Below are positions 52,620 to 60,362 of a DNA stretch of 64,000 bases, in pieces (the first letter of the stretch is position 1; every line of letters begins with the position of its first letter). The DNA lies in assembly GCF_009827635.1 (NCBI RefSeq), contig NZ_WTYW01000001.1, positions 1,072,001 to 1,136,000 on the forward strand, in the 5' to 3' direction. The translations under genes were made by a program, and so were the position numbers. Origin of the DNA: Parapontixanthobacter aurantiacus. GTDB taxonomy: Bacteria > Pseudomonadota > Alphaproteobacteria > Sphingomonadales > Sphingomonadaceae. Under the pieces are notes generated by a model that was not told where the DNA came from, did no database searches, and worked only from the letters and a program-made list of their open reading frames with translations.

Positions 52620-53681
52620 ATGGATTGCCGACTGGTTCGTTACGGCGAACGCGAAAACCTTTCCGAACTGCATCCCGAACTGTTCGAGAAGCGCCCGGAT
52701 CTGTGCGATCCGGCCTTTCCCGCCAATCCGGTCCCGTACGACGATGACTTCCCCTACCTGTTCTATTTTGTGGAAGACGGCGAGATCCTCGGTGCTCGCC
52801 GGGCCATGCCGGACGTGGTCCGCCGCGGCGATGAGGTGCGCGATTTCGCTTGGTGCTTCGATACGATCGTCAATCCTGCGCATCACGGTCGGGGCATCGG
52901 CACCAAACTCGTAGCCGTCCAGGTCGAAGAATTTGGGCGACGCGAGCAGCTTAGCGGAGCCGCCTTCTCTGCACCCGCCATGATGCGCATCTACGAAAAG
53001 CTCGATTACGAGGTGCTGGGGTTCACTCCGAAATATGCGCTGATCCGCAATGTCGGACCCTTCCTCCATCGCAAAGTCTCGCTTCCCTTCGTTACCGGCG
53101 CTTCCGCGTTCCTCGCCAATGTCGCGCTCGCGCTACGCACTGGTCTGAAGGGCGGTCGGGCTGCGTCTCAGGCGAACTGCCGCGAAGTCGATGCGGAAGA
53201 GTTTCGCGCGCTCGCATCGGACATCGAGCGGGACCAAACCCGCTGGCACTGGGACAAAGAGGCAGACTGGGCGACCTCGCGCCTGCAGTCGGTCGACACG
53301 ATGCATGCGGTTCGCAACGCCGAGAACCGGCTGTTGGGCGTGTTCGTTCTGCGCGAACGTGAGCCGGACGCGGAGGACGGCCCCGTCCCCGTTCGCCGCC
53401 TGACGATGATGCATTACGTCGTGGCCGACAGATCCGAAGCGCGCGAAGCTCTCGTCGCTGCGCTGGCAGATTTACTCTATGAGCGCCGTGCGGACGTCGC
53501 CGACATCGTGGTCAGCGACCCGGCTCTGATCGACGCGCTCGAACGGGCTGGCTTCATCAAGCGCGGTCCGGGAATGACATTCGTCTTCAAGCAGGTCGAG
53601 GGTGCAGAACTTTCCCATGCGAGCTCCCTTTCCCACTGGCATCTCACGCATTTCTGCAGCGACGGCTACAGCTTCGCCTGA
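52620..53681 (+). CDS. GNAT-type acyltransferase with two halves
   Basis: A 353-residue GNAT N-acetyltransferase-like protein. The first half has the acetyl-CoA motif FDTIVNPAHHGRGIGTKLVA (RxxG/A type, about 80-100) and FSAPAMMRIYEKLDYEVLG. The second half shows another region (LTMMHYVVADRSEAREALVA with ALADLLYERR and DALERAGFIKRG) of similar helix-strand order, suggesting a duplicated GNAT fold. No signal peptide. Located directly after the GT2 gene, it might add an acyl group to the glycan being made; that is inference. Its 3' end overlaps the convergent propeller gene by 16 bases. Confidence 0.8.
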   Translation: MDCRLVRYGERENLSELHPELFEKRPDLCDPAFPANPVPYDDDFPYLFYFVEDGEILGARRAMPDVVRRGDEVRDFAWCFDTIVNPAHHGRGIGTKLVAVQVEEFGRREQLSGAAFSAPAMMRIYEKLDYEVLGFTPKYALIRNVGPFLHRKVSLPFVTGASAFLANVALALRTGLKGGRAASQANCREVDAEEFRALASDIERDQTRWHWDKEADWATSRLQSVDTMHAVRNAENRLLGVFVLREREPDAEDGPVPVRRLTMMHYVVADRSEAREALVAALADLLYERRADVADIVVSDPALIDALERAGFIKRGPGMTFVFKQVEGAELSHASSLSHWHLTHFCSDGYSFA

Positions 53682-54640
53682 TCGGGCGGACGCACGAAAC
53701 GCGCCAGCGGGTCGAGAAACGCTGCGAATTTGCTCTCCAGCCGCGCCGCGTCGATGACCGTCGTATCGCCGCAATGCGAGATCGTGTGCAATCCATCCGC
53801 ATAGCGCCAACCTGGCGGCGACCGAATTTCCGAAACGGCTTCTTCGGAAAAGCCTTCCCCATCCAACTGCGCAATACGGTTGATGACGATGCTCTCGCCA
53901 TAATATCGCGAGCAGTTCTGCGCGGGCCGGAACCAGTCGTTCCCGTGCCGAAAGAAATGACCCGCCGGTCGCGCCGCGCGCGCATCGCGCTTTACCGGAT
54001 TGCCGGGATGCGGCGTCCACGGTCCGTCCAGCCCTTCGGCGTGAAAAAGGTGAAGGGTTTCGTTCTCGCCTTCATCGAGCCGCGTCGCGAACAGCCAATA
54101 TCGCCCGCCATATCGCAGGATGGAACTGTCGAGCAACGGCTCGCCTGAGATAACCGTCTTTCTAATTCCGGCATCCTGCGGATCGAGCGCCGCGACCAAT
54201 CTGGCCTCCGCTTGTTCCGGCAGGACCAAAGCCTTTCCTTCCCCCTGAAGCGTGTAGGGATAGGAAAGATGGTGCGCCTCCGACAGATAGGGTGCGACCG
54301 GGCCGAAGCTGCCATCGCGAAAACATACCCGTTCGATCGTCCCGCGCATTTCGTCCCAGCGAAGCTGTTCGAAATATATGTCGAGCCCGCCGTCGAATGC
54401 TGGCAGCGGGAATGGATCGGCGCGAAAGAGCCCGCGCTCTTCCTCCATCCACCAAACCGCCGCCAGCGCTTCGCGCTGTGCCGCCGCGCCGTTCAGCCCG
54501 GCCACATCCGCCACAGGCCGAGCCATGACCCCTACATTCCAGTTCTGACGAAAGCCGCGATAGCGCAATGCATCGCGCAACCGAGCTGCGACCCCACGTC
54601 GAGCCTGGTTTCGGGTCGTATCCTCGCTCGCCTCGGTCAT
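53666..54640 (-). CDS. Five-bladed beta-propeller protein (GH43/GINT1 N-terminal-like)
   Basis: A 324-residue protein with the motif set seen in GH43-like propellers: FRADPFPLPAFDGGLDIYFE, LSYPYTLQGEGKALVLPEQ, DSSILRYGGRYWLFATR, LHLFHAEGLDGPWTPHPGN and FRHGNDWFRPAQNCSRYYG. It matches the domain found at the N-terminus of plant glucosamine inositolphosphorylceramide transferases and in bacterial glycan clusters. Whether it hydrolyses or transfers a sugar is not known. No signal peptide, so it acts in the cytosol. It converges on the GNAT gene with a 16-base overlap and precedes lepA by 42 bases on the same strand. Confidence 0.75.
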   Translation of the reverse strand: MTEASEDTTRNQARRGVAARLRDALRYRGFRQNWNVGVMARPVADVAGLNGAAAQREALAAVWWMEEERGLFRADPFPLPAFDGGLDIYFEQLRWDEMRGTIERVCFRDGSFGPVAPYLSEAHHLSYPYTLQGEGKALVLPEQAEARLVAALDPQDAGIRKTVISGEPLLDSSILRYGGRYWLFATRLDEGENETLHLFHAEGLDGPWTPHPGNPVKRDARAARPAGHFFRHGNDWFRPAQNCSRYYGESIVINRIAQLDGEGFSEEAVSEIRSPPGWRYADGLHTISHCGDTTVIDAARLESKFAAFLDPLARFVRPPDQAKL

Positions 54641-54682: not shown

Positions 54683-56500
<1,818 letters not shown>

Positions 56501-56584: not shown

Positions 56585-58792
56585 CTAAACGGGCTGCGGC
56601 CCCTGCCCCTGCGTCGGAGCGCGTCCCGACAACTTGAACTGCGGGAACCCTGCCGCCTGTCCACCCGCGTCGCCGAGACCCGAATACTTGCCCGCCGGCA
56701 AGGCAGAGAGCGGAGCGCCAGCGGCCGCCAGCTCGTAAGGGCTCACGCGATGCCGTGTGCAAAGCCCGCCCGCCCCGTCATCGACAAGCGCGGATTCAAA
56801 TTCGAGGCCCTGCACATCGTCGTCGGTCCGCTTGACCGACGCCACAGCAAGCTGTCCGCCACCGAAATCGAGCACGAACATGGTGCCGACCGGTACGTCC
56901 TCAAGCCCCTCGATCATTGCTCCGGTGCGCGACAGGTTGCGCAGCGTGACCTCGTAGTAATGGTCTTCGTGAATGATGCCGATCCTGCGGAATACCGTCC
57001 GCCGCCCGGCCCGCTGCGAGCCGTCATGCGAGGGATCGAGAACCCACTCGCCCGCCGCAATTTCCTCGGCGATCTTCTCGCTCGAAAGCGGTTCGGAGAA
57101 CACGAAGCCCAGGACGTTGCCAATGCCCCGCTTCGCGAGCGCTTTCAGCAGATCGAGCGAATCGACGCCGGCGGCGACGGTTTCCATGCCGAGGACCTTG
57201 GTCAGTTCGACGATCGCCTCGACCATGTCGAGATCGCCCAACTCGTCGACCATCGTACTTTCGAAGAAGCTTTCGCCGATCTTGATGCTGCTGAACGGGG
57301 CGCGGCGTAAATAGCTCAGCGACGTGTAGCCCGTCCCGAACTGGTCGAGCGAGAGACGCACGCCGAGCTTGAAGAGGTCGGAGATCGCCTTTTCCGTCGC
57401 TGCCTGATCGGTCAGAAAGACCGCTTCGTTCATCTCGATCTCGAGCCGGGCCGGATCAAGCCCGGTTTCCTCGAGCGTCCGAGTGACCATTTCGACGAAG
57501 CCTTTCTCGCCGAATTGCACTGGCGAGACGTTCATCACGAGCCGCAGGCTGGCCGGCCATTCGCAGGCATCCTCGCAGGCTTTCTTCAATGCCCATTCGC
57601 CGATGGGCACGATGAGGCGGCTGCCCTCGGCCACGGGCAGGAAGGTCGAGGCAGGCACCCGGCCACGTTCCTCGTCGTCCCAGACATAGGTCGCCTGAAG
57701 CCCGACGACCTTGTTCCCCTTCAGCGCGACGATCGGCTGATATTCGAGCTTGAACTGTCCGGCGTCGATCGCGTCGGACAAATCGTCTTCCATCCGCTTT
57801 CTGAGATTGGCACCGTGTTCCAGCTCCGCCGAATAGAAGCGGAACTGCCCGCGCCCGCCGTTCTTGGCGGAATAGAGTGCCAGGTCGGCGGCGCGGGTGA
57901 GTTCGTCCCGCTCGATCCCGTCATAAGGTGCGATCGCAATGCCGACCGATGCGCCGATCGAGCAGCGGCCTTCCTCGACGGAATAGGGTTGCGAGAGCAT
58001 GGTGATGATCTTCTTCGCGATCTCGCCGAGCTTTCCCCGATCGTCGATGTCCGGCAGCATCACCTGAAACTCGTCGCCACCGAGCCGTCCAATCTCGCCA
58101 ATTTCACCGAGCACACTGGTCAGACGCTGAGCAACCTGCACCAGCAACTGGTCGCCTGCAGCATGGCCGAGCGTGTCGTTCACCGCCTTGAAGCGATCGA
58201 GATCCATCATCAGGATGGCACAGGTGCGCTTGGCCTGACGGAAGGTGTTGAGCGTCGAATCGATGCACTGACCCATCCGGTGCCGGTTGGAGAGGCCGGT
58301 GAGCGCGTCGTATTTTGCGAGGCGGTTCGCTTCTTCCTCGCTTCGGAATTCTTCCGTGATGTCGATCCCGCTGCCCCTGAACCCCTGGAACTCTCCCGCG
58401 CTGTCGAACGAAGGACGCCCGGACAAGCGCAGCACGATGTCGCGATTGCGATCGCAGGCCGAAACGGTGAAATTGGCGAAGGCCTTGCGGGTCCCGAGTT
58501 TCAATCCGAGAGAACGCGCGTCGTTGTCGCTCGAAATCGGCTTGAAGACGTTCTGCAGCTGCTGGCCCTTCAGCGTGTCGAGCCCCTTGCCCAGCCCGTC
58601 GGTGATGGAGGGGCTGAGATAGGTGAGCGAGCCATCCGGACCGGTCGCCCAGAAAGCGGCGAGACCGGTGTCTTCGAGGTCCTCGACGATCGACAGCTTT
58701 TCCTGCGGTTCGATACCGCGACCACCCCCGCCGCGAAGTTCGGCGGGGTTGCGGCTTTTCTTGAACAGAGCGGAAAAGGGCATTTCGCCCAT
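56585..58792 (-). CDS. PAS-GGDEF-EAL-PilZ cyclic-di-GMP protein with degenerate EAL
   Basis: A 735-residue cytosolic signalling protein. PAS-like domain about 35-150; GGDEF about 160-320 with an intact GGDEF at 238-242 and LGHAAGDQLL, so it probably makes cyclic-di-GMP. No RxxD inhibition site is visible. The EAL-like domain (about 335-580) has lost catalytic residues: the ExLxR motif reads GLQATYVW (Q366), DDFGTG reads DQFGTG (483-488), and the active-site KxD reads KIGESF. It should not hydrolyse cyclic-di-GMP. A C-terminal PilZ domain (about 595-665) has GRRTVFRR and NLSRTGAMI, fit to bind it. An inverted repeat lies upstream. Confidence 0.88.
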   Translation of the reverse strand: MGEMPFSALFKKSRNPAELRGGGGRGIEPQEKLSIVEDLEDTGLAAFWATGPDGSLTYLSPSITDGLGKGLDTLKGQQLQNVFKPISSDNDARSLGLKLGTRKAFANFTVSACDRNRDIVLRLSGRPSFDSAGEFQGFRGSGIDITEEFRSEEEANRLAKYDALTGLSNRHRMGQCIDSTLNTFRQAKRTCAILMMDLDRFKAVNDTLGHAAGDQLLVQVAQRLTSVLGEIGEIGRLGGDEFQVMLPDIDDRGKLGEIAKKIITMLSQPYSVEEGRCSIGASVGIAIAPYDGIERDELTRAADLALYSAKNGGRGQFRFYSAELEHGANLRKRMEDDLSDAIDAGQFKLEYQPIVALKGNKVVGLQATYVWDDEERGRVPASTFLPVAEGSRLIVPIGEWALKKACEDACEWPASLRLVMNVSPVQFGEKGFVEMVTRTLEETGLDPARLEIEMNEAVFLTDQAATEKAISDLFKLGVRLSLDQFGTGYTSLSYLRRAPFSSIKIGESFFESTMVDELGDLDMVEAIVELTKVLGMETVAAGVDSLDLLKALAKRGIGNVLGFVFSEPLSSEKIAEEIAAGEWVLDPSHDGSQRAGRRTVFRRIGIIHEDHYYEVTLRNLSRTGAMIEGLEDVPVGTMFVLDFGGGQLAVASVKRTDDDVQGLEFESALVDDGAGGLCTRHRVSPYELAAAGAPLSALPAGKYSGLGDAGGQAAGFPQFKLSGRAPTQGQGPQPV

Positions 58793-59042: not shown

Positions 59043-60362
59043 TTGCTTCACATCGCCATTATCGGAAGCGGCCCGGCCGGATATTACACGGCGGAAGCGG
59101 CAGCCAAGGAATGGGGAGAGGACGTGCGGGTCGATGTGTTCGATGCGCTGCCCGTCCCCTACGGCCTTATTCGCTCGGGCGTCGCCCCGGACCATCAGTC
59201 GATCAAGGGCGTCTCGCGCCGTTACGAAAAGACTGCGTTCAGCGACAATGTCCGCTTCGTCGGCAATGTCCGCATCGGCAAGGACGTCTCGATCGAGGAA
59301 TTGCAAAAGCTTTACGACGCCGTGGTCCTCGCAACGGGCGCGCCGCAGGACCGGACGCTCGACATCCCGGGCAATGATCTTCGCAACGTCATCGGCAGCG
59401 CCGCTTTCGTGGGCTGGTATAATGGACATCCGCAATTCGCCGATCTCGCACCGAACCTGGCAGGACGCCATGCGGTCGTCATCGGTATGGGCAATGTCGC
59501 GCTCGATGTCGCGCGCATTCTCGCCAAGAGCGAGGCAGAGTTCACTGGCAGCGATATCGTCGCTCATGCTTTCGACGCCTTGCGCCAATCTGAAATCGAG
59601 CGGATCACCATCGTCGGGCGCCGCGGCCCTTACCAGATCCAGATGACACCTAAGGAACTGGGCGAGCTCGGCGAACTGGAACGCGCTACTCCTCATGTCG
59701 CTCAGGCGGATTTACCGCCTGAAGAAGAAGATGCGATTCTCGAACCGGGCTTGCGCAAGTCGGTGGCTCACTTGCGCCAGTTCGCCGCCATTCCGGACAG
59801 CGAGCGCGGCACGAAGCCGATCGTCATCGACTTTGCCATGTTCGCCAGTCCGACGGCATTTCTCGGCGATGACACGGTCGCCGAAGTCGAACTGGAGCGC
59901 ACCGGACTCGTCGAAGGCAGGGCGGTCGGTACCGGCGAGACATTTCGCCTGCCAGCCGATCTCGTCGTGACCTGTATCGGCTATCGCACGTCACCGATCG
60001 AAGGGGTGCCGTTCGACGAGCGCGCCGGACGTTTCGCCAACGAGGACGGACGCATCCTGCCGGGACTGTACTGCGTGGGATGGGCGCGGCGCGGTCCCAC
60101 AGGAACCATCGGCACGAACAGGCCGGACGGTTATGCTCTGATCGAGAAGATCGCGTCCGACTTCGATTCGGCAGACCGAAAGAAGAAAGAAGGTCGGGCA
60201 GGGTTCGATCGCATGGCGGCGAAACGCGGCCTCAAAATCGTCACGTTTCAGGAATGGAAAAGGATCGAGGAAGCCGAAGCCGCAGCCGCTCGCGACGGCT
60301 CGCCGCGCGAGAAGTTCGTCGATGTCGAAGCGATGATGCAGGCTATTCGCCCGTCCGCGTGA
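59043..60362 (+). CDS. Ferredoxin-NADP+ reductase (adrenodoxin reductase-like)
   Basis: A 439-residue FAD enzyme that moves electrons between NADPH and ferredoxin. The N-terminal FAD motif is HIAIIGSGPAGYYTAEAAAK, then VPYGLIRSGVAPDHQSIKGV typical of adrenodoxin-reductase-like proteins, and an NADP loop AVVIGMGNVALDVARIL near 145. The C-terminal CVGWARRGPTGTIGTNRPDG completes the FAD site. The TTG start at 59043 is supported by GGGAGG six bases upstream and by the family N-terminus. It is the natural partner of ferredoxin-dependent enzymes such as KorAB. It converges on dnaN across 10 bases. Confidence 0.9.
   Translation: MLHIAIIGSGPAGYYTAEAAAKEWGEDVRVDVFDALPVPYGLIRSGVAPDHQSIKGVSRRYEKTAFSDNVRFVGNVRIGKDVSIEELQKLYDAVVLATGAPQDRTLDIPGNDLRNVIGSAAFVGWYNGHPQFADLAPNLAGRHAVVIGMGNVALDVARILAKSEAEFTGSDIVAHAFDALRQSEIERITIVGRRGPYQIQMTPKELGELGELERATPHVAQADLPPEEEDAILEPGLRKSVAHLRQFAAIPDSERGTKPIVIDFAMFASPTAFLGDDTVAEVELERTGLVEGRAVGTGETFRLPADLVVTCIGYRTSPIEGVPFDERAGRFANEDGRILPGLYCVGWARRGPTGTIGTNRPDGYALIEKIASDFDSADRKKKEGRAGFDRMAAKRGLKIVTFQEWKRIEEAEAAAARDGSPREKFVDVEAMMQAIRPSA

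Follow-up and report, generated by a model that had tools for sequence, protein, structure and literature searches.

The window, a stretch of 64,000 nucleotides from Parapontixanthobacter aurantiacus (contig NZ_WTYW01000001.1, positions 1,072,001 to 1,136,000), carries on its minus strand a gene for a 735-residue protein with PAS, GGDEF, EAL and PilZ domains, in which the residues of the EAL active site are largely replaced. The gene, its domains and its neighbours are as follows.

54683..56500, minus strand: lepA (EF4), with Pfam LepA_C, directly downstream in the same direction after an 84-bp gap
56585..58792, minus strand: gene of the PAS-GGDEF-EAL-PilZ protein, predicted to be phosphodiesterase (PDE)-dead, 735 aa in a single ORF with ATG at 58792
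56717..56788, minus strand: conserved C-terminal tail after PilZ, residues 669-692, with 18/24 positions >95% identical in the clade of 32 described below
56792..57013, minus strand: PilZ domain, residues about 594-667, sub-threshold in Pfam, with fold matches to PilZ/c-di-GMP complexes
56921..56938, minus strand: PilZ NxSxxG motif (N619, S621, G624), found in 32/32 of the clade
56987..57001, minus strand: PilZ RxxxR motif, R598 and R602, both found in 32/32 of the clade
57089..57787, minus strand: EAL domain, residues 336-568, fold kept and active site lost
57170..57172, minus strand: codon of A541 at the EAL general-base position, which is Glu in 64/64 PDE-intact relatives (groups A and B below)
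57848..58318, minus strand: GGDEF domain, residues 159-315, catalytic set complete, without RxxD I-site
58067..58081, minus strand: GGDEF motif, residues 238-242, placed by sequence and position map
58349..58690, minus strand: PAS domain, residues about 35-148, with weak Pfam PAS_9/PAS_4 matches and the strands and helices of the model
59043..60362, plus strand: divergent gene of an FAD/NAD(P)-dependent oxidoreductase (Pfam Pyr_redox_2; synteny), which we take to be fprA

A promoter scan of the PDE-dead gene found no sigma-70-type site, and 4 terminator-like sites were counted where shuffled sequence gave 2.1 on average.

The GGDEF and EAL domains are far above their Pfam cut-offs (139 bits for residues 159-315 against 23.8, and 179 bits for residues 336-568 against 31.3), while the matches to PAS_9 (residues 47-147, 21.2 bits) and PilZ (residues 599-665, 16.0 bits) are below theirs, 27 and 22.5, correspondingly. 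The PilZ cut-off is passed by the long relatives L031 (42.6 bits) and L036 (35.1 bits). The genome as a whole gives 10 GGDEF, 9 EAL and 9 PilZ matches, in a search where the PilZ domain of the window protein falls below the threshold and its EAL domain is the weakest of the nine.

The AlphaFold2 model of the full protein (mean pLDDT 84.6, 56 sequences) contains an N-terminal alpha/beta part, the GGDEF domain, an EAL barrel and a beta-rich C-terminal domain, and its best solved matches in Foldseek are the PAS-GGDEF-EAL structures of PA0861 (top), PA0575 and MorA. The EAL fold superposes on 5m1t, a c-di-GMP phosphodiesterase, with a Z of 33.1 over 243 residues at 1.6 A. The last 159 residues were modelled separately, with PA0012 in complex with c-di-GMP (8u0i) as the best match (Z 10.2, 77 residues, 2.6 A), and the first 22 match rows are PilZ proteins, by title or known identity, many of them c-di-GMP complexes. 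For this model Foldseek alone found nothing at E<=0.001 (best E 3.8e-3), a PilZ profile gave no match against PDB sequences at E<=1, and residues 591-599, which hold most of the Arg run, have low model confidence. The PilZ assignment, sub-threshold in Pfam, is nevertheless supported by the predicted fold of the separate model. The GGDEF, EAL and PilZ domains are those named in an earlier note on this DNA, which overlooked the PAS domain and the C-terminal tail.

All 11 GGDEF sites checked are intact (D197, F201, N205, D214, G238-G239-D240-E241-F242, K310 and R314), and the RxxD I-site is absent five residues before GGDEF in the window protein, where G229 and G232 are found. The ten EAL positions, which read ENEDDKDEEQ in intact relatives, read QNEDQKGADL in the window protein, so that 6/10 are lost: Q366 replaces the E, Q484 the second D of DDFGTG and G506 the D of KID, the general base is now A541, D544 stands for the second E of EGVE, and L561 for the Q. 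R370, the R of the ExLxR motif, is replaced by V, leaving QxTxV. The PilZ motifs are R598-T-V-F-R602 and N619-L-S621-R-T-G624. The earlier note had described the GGDEF domain as intact and without an inhibition site, the EAL domain as dead on account of Q366, Q484 and G506, and the PilZ domain as having both binding motifs; each of these descriptions is borne out, that of the EAL domain with further losses, the general base among them.

According to the rule given in the cited part of PMC12900916, a protein whose EGVE motif has lost the base is predicted to be without PDE activity. ExLxR appears in Table 1 of PMC10333796 as the motif of degenerate EAL receptors. The EAL domain was considered as a second c-di-GMP sensor and this was rejected as unlikely, because ExLxR is absent in 32/32 members of the clade.

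Relatives were drawn from 59 genomes, from 397 genomes of the family and from named GTDB contigs. In the 397-genome search, loci were taken from the best 30 places, of which 22 are PDE-dead, and lower-ranked PDE-dead relatives may be missing. Outgroups without PilZ, fragments and a number of distant long paralogues, together the rows of 23 name prefixes, were removed, and the tree of the 99 proteins left was built by a quick method from 412 PAS, GGDEF and PilZ columns with the EAL columns excluded. Three groups, together 96 sequences, were compared: the clade of the window protein (n=32), the PDE-intact group B (n=43) and the long group A (n=21). An intact EAL was part of the definition of group B, which makes its 0/430 EAL losses a matter of construction; its GGDEF and PilZ counts are independent of that.

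The clade of the window protein (SH-aLRT 98) comprises 32 proteins of Erythrobacteraceae type and is nested among EAL-intact relatives; its members come from Actirhodobacter atriluteus (81% identical), Qipengyuania, Altererythrobacter xiamenensis, Porphyrobacter sp. GA68 and others. On the tree, three state changes account for the 34 rows in which one or more EAL sites differ, one for the 32-member clade and one each for L076 and L155, which both have the base Glu, lie outside the clade and are not counted in the 32. Since the EAL site is intact outside the clade except in these two, its loss is by parsimony the derived state. Conservation in a clade of 32 puts the residue pattern beyond chance. 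Judged from the aligned sequences, the loss is not peculiar to the genome of the window; it is a trait of the clade, and the site appears to have been dismantled long ago.

L076 (Novosphingobium marinum, L076:4974-7157), which is lepA-linked too, carries independent EAL changes: the base is kept, and the replacements affect the N, ExTE at its first E and EGVE at its second. The tail of residues 669-692 (family consensus DDGAGGLCTRHRVSPY) is near-invariant across the PDE-dead clade and group B; this does not apply to the long group A. Among plasmids, 145 records of relatives were found, all with <60% identity, and one covers >80% of the query.

The gene is followed directly by lepA in the same direction in 31/32 clade loci, the window included; the stretch of L165 ends before it. 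The lepA link is a conserved position, and no functional link is claimed. A homologous GGDEF-EAL-PilZ paralogue adjoins the gene in 25/32 loci, upstream in 24 and downstream in one (L165), and the upstream paralogue sits between fprA and the PDE-dead gene wherever fprA is seen. These partners are of the B type, mostly 44-50% identical, and keep 10/10 EAL sites in 25/25 cases. The opposite loss, a damaged GGDEF with an intact EAL, is found in two of them (L062:2619-4844 and L063:2633-4864), where the first metal Asp is Gly and the motifs read GSDEF and GDNEF. In five others (the partners of L052-L055 and L162) one Arg is Lys.

Seven of the 32 loci have no adjoining partner: the window, L051, L058, L060, L074, L101 and L166. 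In L060, L074 and L101 the distance from fprA to the gene is about 2.8 to 3 kb, with no paralogue in between. In L060 (2159-4836) the place is taken by two ORFs on the minus strand (286 and 590 aa), whose products resemble an alpha/beta hydrolase and, presumably, a protein of the PHA synthase kind. The next best relative of the window protein in its own genome has 691 residues, is only 40% identical and lies at a different place, so the partner seems to be absent from this genome.

The missing I-site is not a mark of the window protein. RxxD at the usual spacing is found in 0/96 sequences of the three groups, PDE-intact ones included, and while its absence was rightly noticed in the earlier note, it is in no way special to this protein. 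An R..D shifted by three residues is seen in 10/32 rows of the clade and 3/43 of group B, but not in the window protein; L060, L061, L063, L070, L074, L101, L141, L145, L152 and L154 have it three residues before the usual spacing. Loss of the I-site as an adaptation of the PDE-dead protein was therefore rejected, the usual-spacing motif being absent in 96/96 rows. For the same reason an exchange of the I-site for PilZ could not have been made when the EAL site died, since PDE-intact relatives lack the I-site too.

The GGDEF-EAL tandem and its fold are shared with RbdA (PA0861), RmcA (PA0575), MorA and DosP, the best matches among solved structures, and a PAS domain is present in RbdA as well as in RmcA, MorA and DosP. 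These four have an intact EAL domain after which the chain ends, whereas the window protein has a dead EAL domain followed by PilZ. FimX and LapD, the GGDEF domain of LapD being dead, resemble the window protein in keeping a catalytically dead EAL as a domain. However, in Table 1 of PMC10333796 both bind c-di-GMP through the EAL motif ExLxR, which the window protein lacks, and the GGDEF domain, intact in the window protein, does not synthesise in FimX according to the cited passage of PMC7288161.

Among the GGDEF-EAL cyclases of Komagataeibacter xylinus, one attached EAL is inactive via a degenerate loop 6 (PMC10333796, section 6); the catalytic motifs of these cyclases are described there as conserved and that section mentions no PilZ, while in the window protein the motifs are lost. 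ZMO1055 of Zymomonas mobilis and its Sphingomonas homologues come from bacteria of the same order as the host of the window protein, and the catalytic state of GGDEF and EAL differs between these vertical homologues in the accounts cited from PMC10333796 and PMC12900916. The ZMO1055 type has an altered GGDEF and an active EAL, and PilZ is not part of its description there as PAS-dGGDEF-EAL. Leptospira PilZ-GGDEF proteins, compared by the description given in the cited part of PMC5932348 only, carry GGDEF and PilZ on one chain like the window protein, but have no EAL and belong to a different phylum. Proteins that combine PilZ with GGDEF and EAL domains are already described in the cited part of PMC7288161, and the fusion is not new. 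In the open-licence literature searched, no description of the PDE-dead clade or of the tandem pair was found. Ten PilZ proteins of Qipengyuania flava were screened by Cai et al. 2023, as told in the cited part of PMC10267684, and these may include an orthologue of the window protein; mPilZ-1753 of that species was rejected as the orthologue, as it is described as having 123 aa (PMC10267684).

The conserved and lost residues suggest, with moderate confidence, that the window protein is a PDE-dead, PAS-linked diguanylate cyclase whose PilZ domain binds the product c-di-GMP. The ancestral GGDEF-EAL-PilZ protein, encoded at the conserved position next to lepA, would have had both active sites, and the EAL site would have been dismantled in one clade while the cyclase and PilZ sites were kept. 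The present protein would be soluble, and its PilZ domain is most likely a product sensor on the same chain, which may throttle the cyclase, doing the job of the absent I-site, or may equally act as output by changing the contacts of the protein with a partner. The EAL fold probably stays as a linker or dimerisation scaffold that no longer holds c-di-GMP. The earlier note had proposed a self-contained switch that makes and senses c-di-GMP. Making and sensing on one chain is plausible, since all 32 clade members retain the GGDEF and PilZ residues and none has the EAL base. For the clade, "self-contained" is open to doubt, as 25/32 genes adjoin a PDE-intact paralogue, though the window genome seems to have no partner.

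Cyclase activity does not follow from intact GGDEF motifs alone, which counts against this reading. GdpS, discussed in section 6 of PMC10333796, is a precedent in which the GGDEF motifs are conserved and the phenotypes are independent of activity. The protein could similarly be a pure receptor or scaffold, a hub like FimX or CsrD in which GGDEF binds GTP or c-di-GMP with little product and PilZ controls protein contacts, and a dead EAL retained as a fold under purifying selection is in line with this. We consider it unlikely, however, because catalysis-specific residues that are not used would be free to drift, whereas no GGDEF cell is lost in the clade (0/352, against 13/473 in group B). Section 6 of PMC10333796 also reports that GGDEF domains can evolve into GTP sensors that serve an attached EAL; with its EAL dead, the window protein would have no use for such a sensor.

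The PilZ site is conserved in the same way: R598 and R602 are both present in 32/32 of the clade, 28/43 of group B and 2/21 of the long group A, and (D/N)xSxxG is complete in all three (32/32, 43/43 and 21/21). Mean pairwise identity in the clade is 0.774 for GGDEF, 0.784 for PilZ and 0.536 for EAL; the corresponding values are 0.670, 0.647 and 0.581 in group B and 0.725, 0.521 and 0.755 in group A.

The EAL site has gone the other way, with 147/320 cells lost in the clade. Some residual phosphodiesterase activity, by which the altered EAL would slowly hydrolyse c-di-GMP and the protein would still be bifunctional, might be considered, as the fold is intact and some members keep more sites (L051 loses only 3/10). 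It is highly improbable given that the general base is lost in 32/32 (S in 12, T in 8, N in 5, A in 4, and C, D and H in one each) and the second Asp of DDFGTG in 31/32, that 6/10 sites are gone in the window protein and that ExLxR is found in 0/32. R370 is kept in 1/32, K502 in 0/32 and T455 in 0/32.

In eight clade pairs the EAL dN/dS is 0.010-0.158, rough values, as synonymous change is close to saturated in most of the pairs. The EAL dN is 1.0 to about 15 times the GGDEF dN in these eight pairs and 1.1 to 2.9 times in seven non-clade pairs, one of which holds L155 with its single EAL change, a comparison that is only indicative, given non-independent pairs and dS values frequently >1. The EAL domain thus looks like a retained scaffold, relaxed but still under purifying selection. 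A pseudogene was rejected in view of the full-length ORFs and this selection. Neutral decay, in which the EAL loss is drift after duplication in a protein without dedicated function, could draw on the faster divergence of EAL in the clade and on the lack of an adjoining partner gene in 7/32, but is scarcely credible beside full-length ORFs in 32/32, an EAL dN/dS well below 1, GGDEF and PilZ domains more conserved than in PDE-intact relatives and a conserved place beside lepA.

The reading of a PDE-dead cyclase with a PilZ product sensor can tentatively be extended to the tandem pair. It is possible, though rather doubtful, that a duplicated bifunctional GGDEF-EAL-PilZ enzyme was divided, the lepA-linked copy becoming a pure cyclase that reads its product via PilZ replacing the I-site, and the neighbour keeping the PDE and, in one lineage, losing the cyclase. 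If true, the two genes would form a local circuit for c-di-GMP in which maker and breaker each carry a PilZ sensor, and of which the lineage of the window kept only the maker at the lepA-linked place. A cyclase with its own product sensor in the form of PilZ would give feedback another route than the I-site and would exemplify local c-di-GMP signalling clearly. Within the clade there are matched natural comparisons, in which one genome has a PDE-dead protein next to a PDE-intact one with the same domain architecture; among them are the two records whose neighbour has the opposite loss.

Beyond lepA, at 53666-54640 of the window, lies a protein with a GINT1_N match of 82 bits (glucosamine inositolphosphorylceramide transferase N-terminal), a family that takes its name from a plant enzyme.
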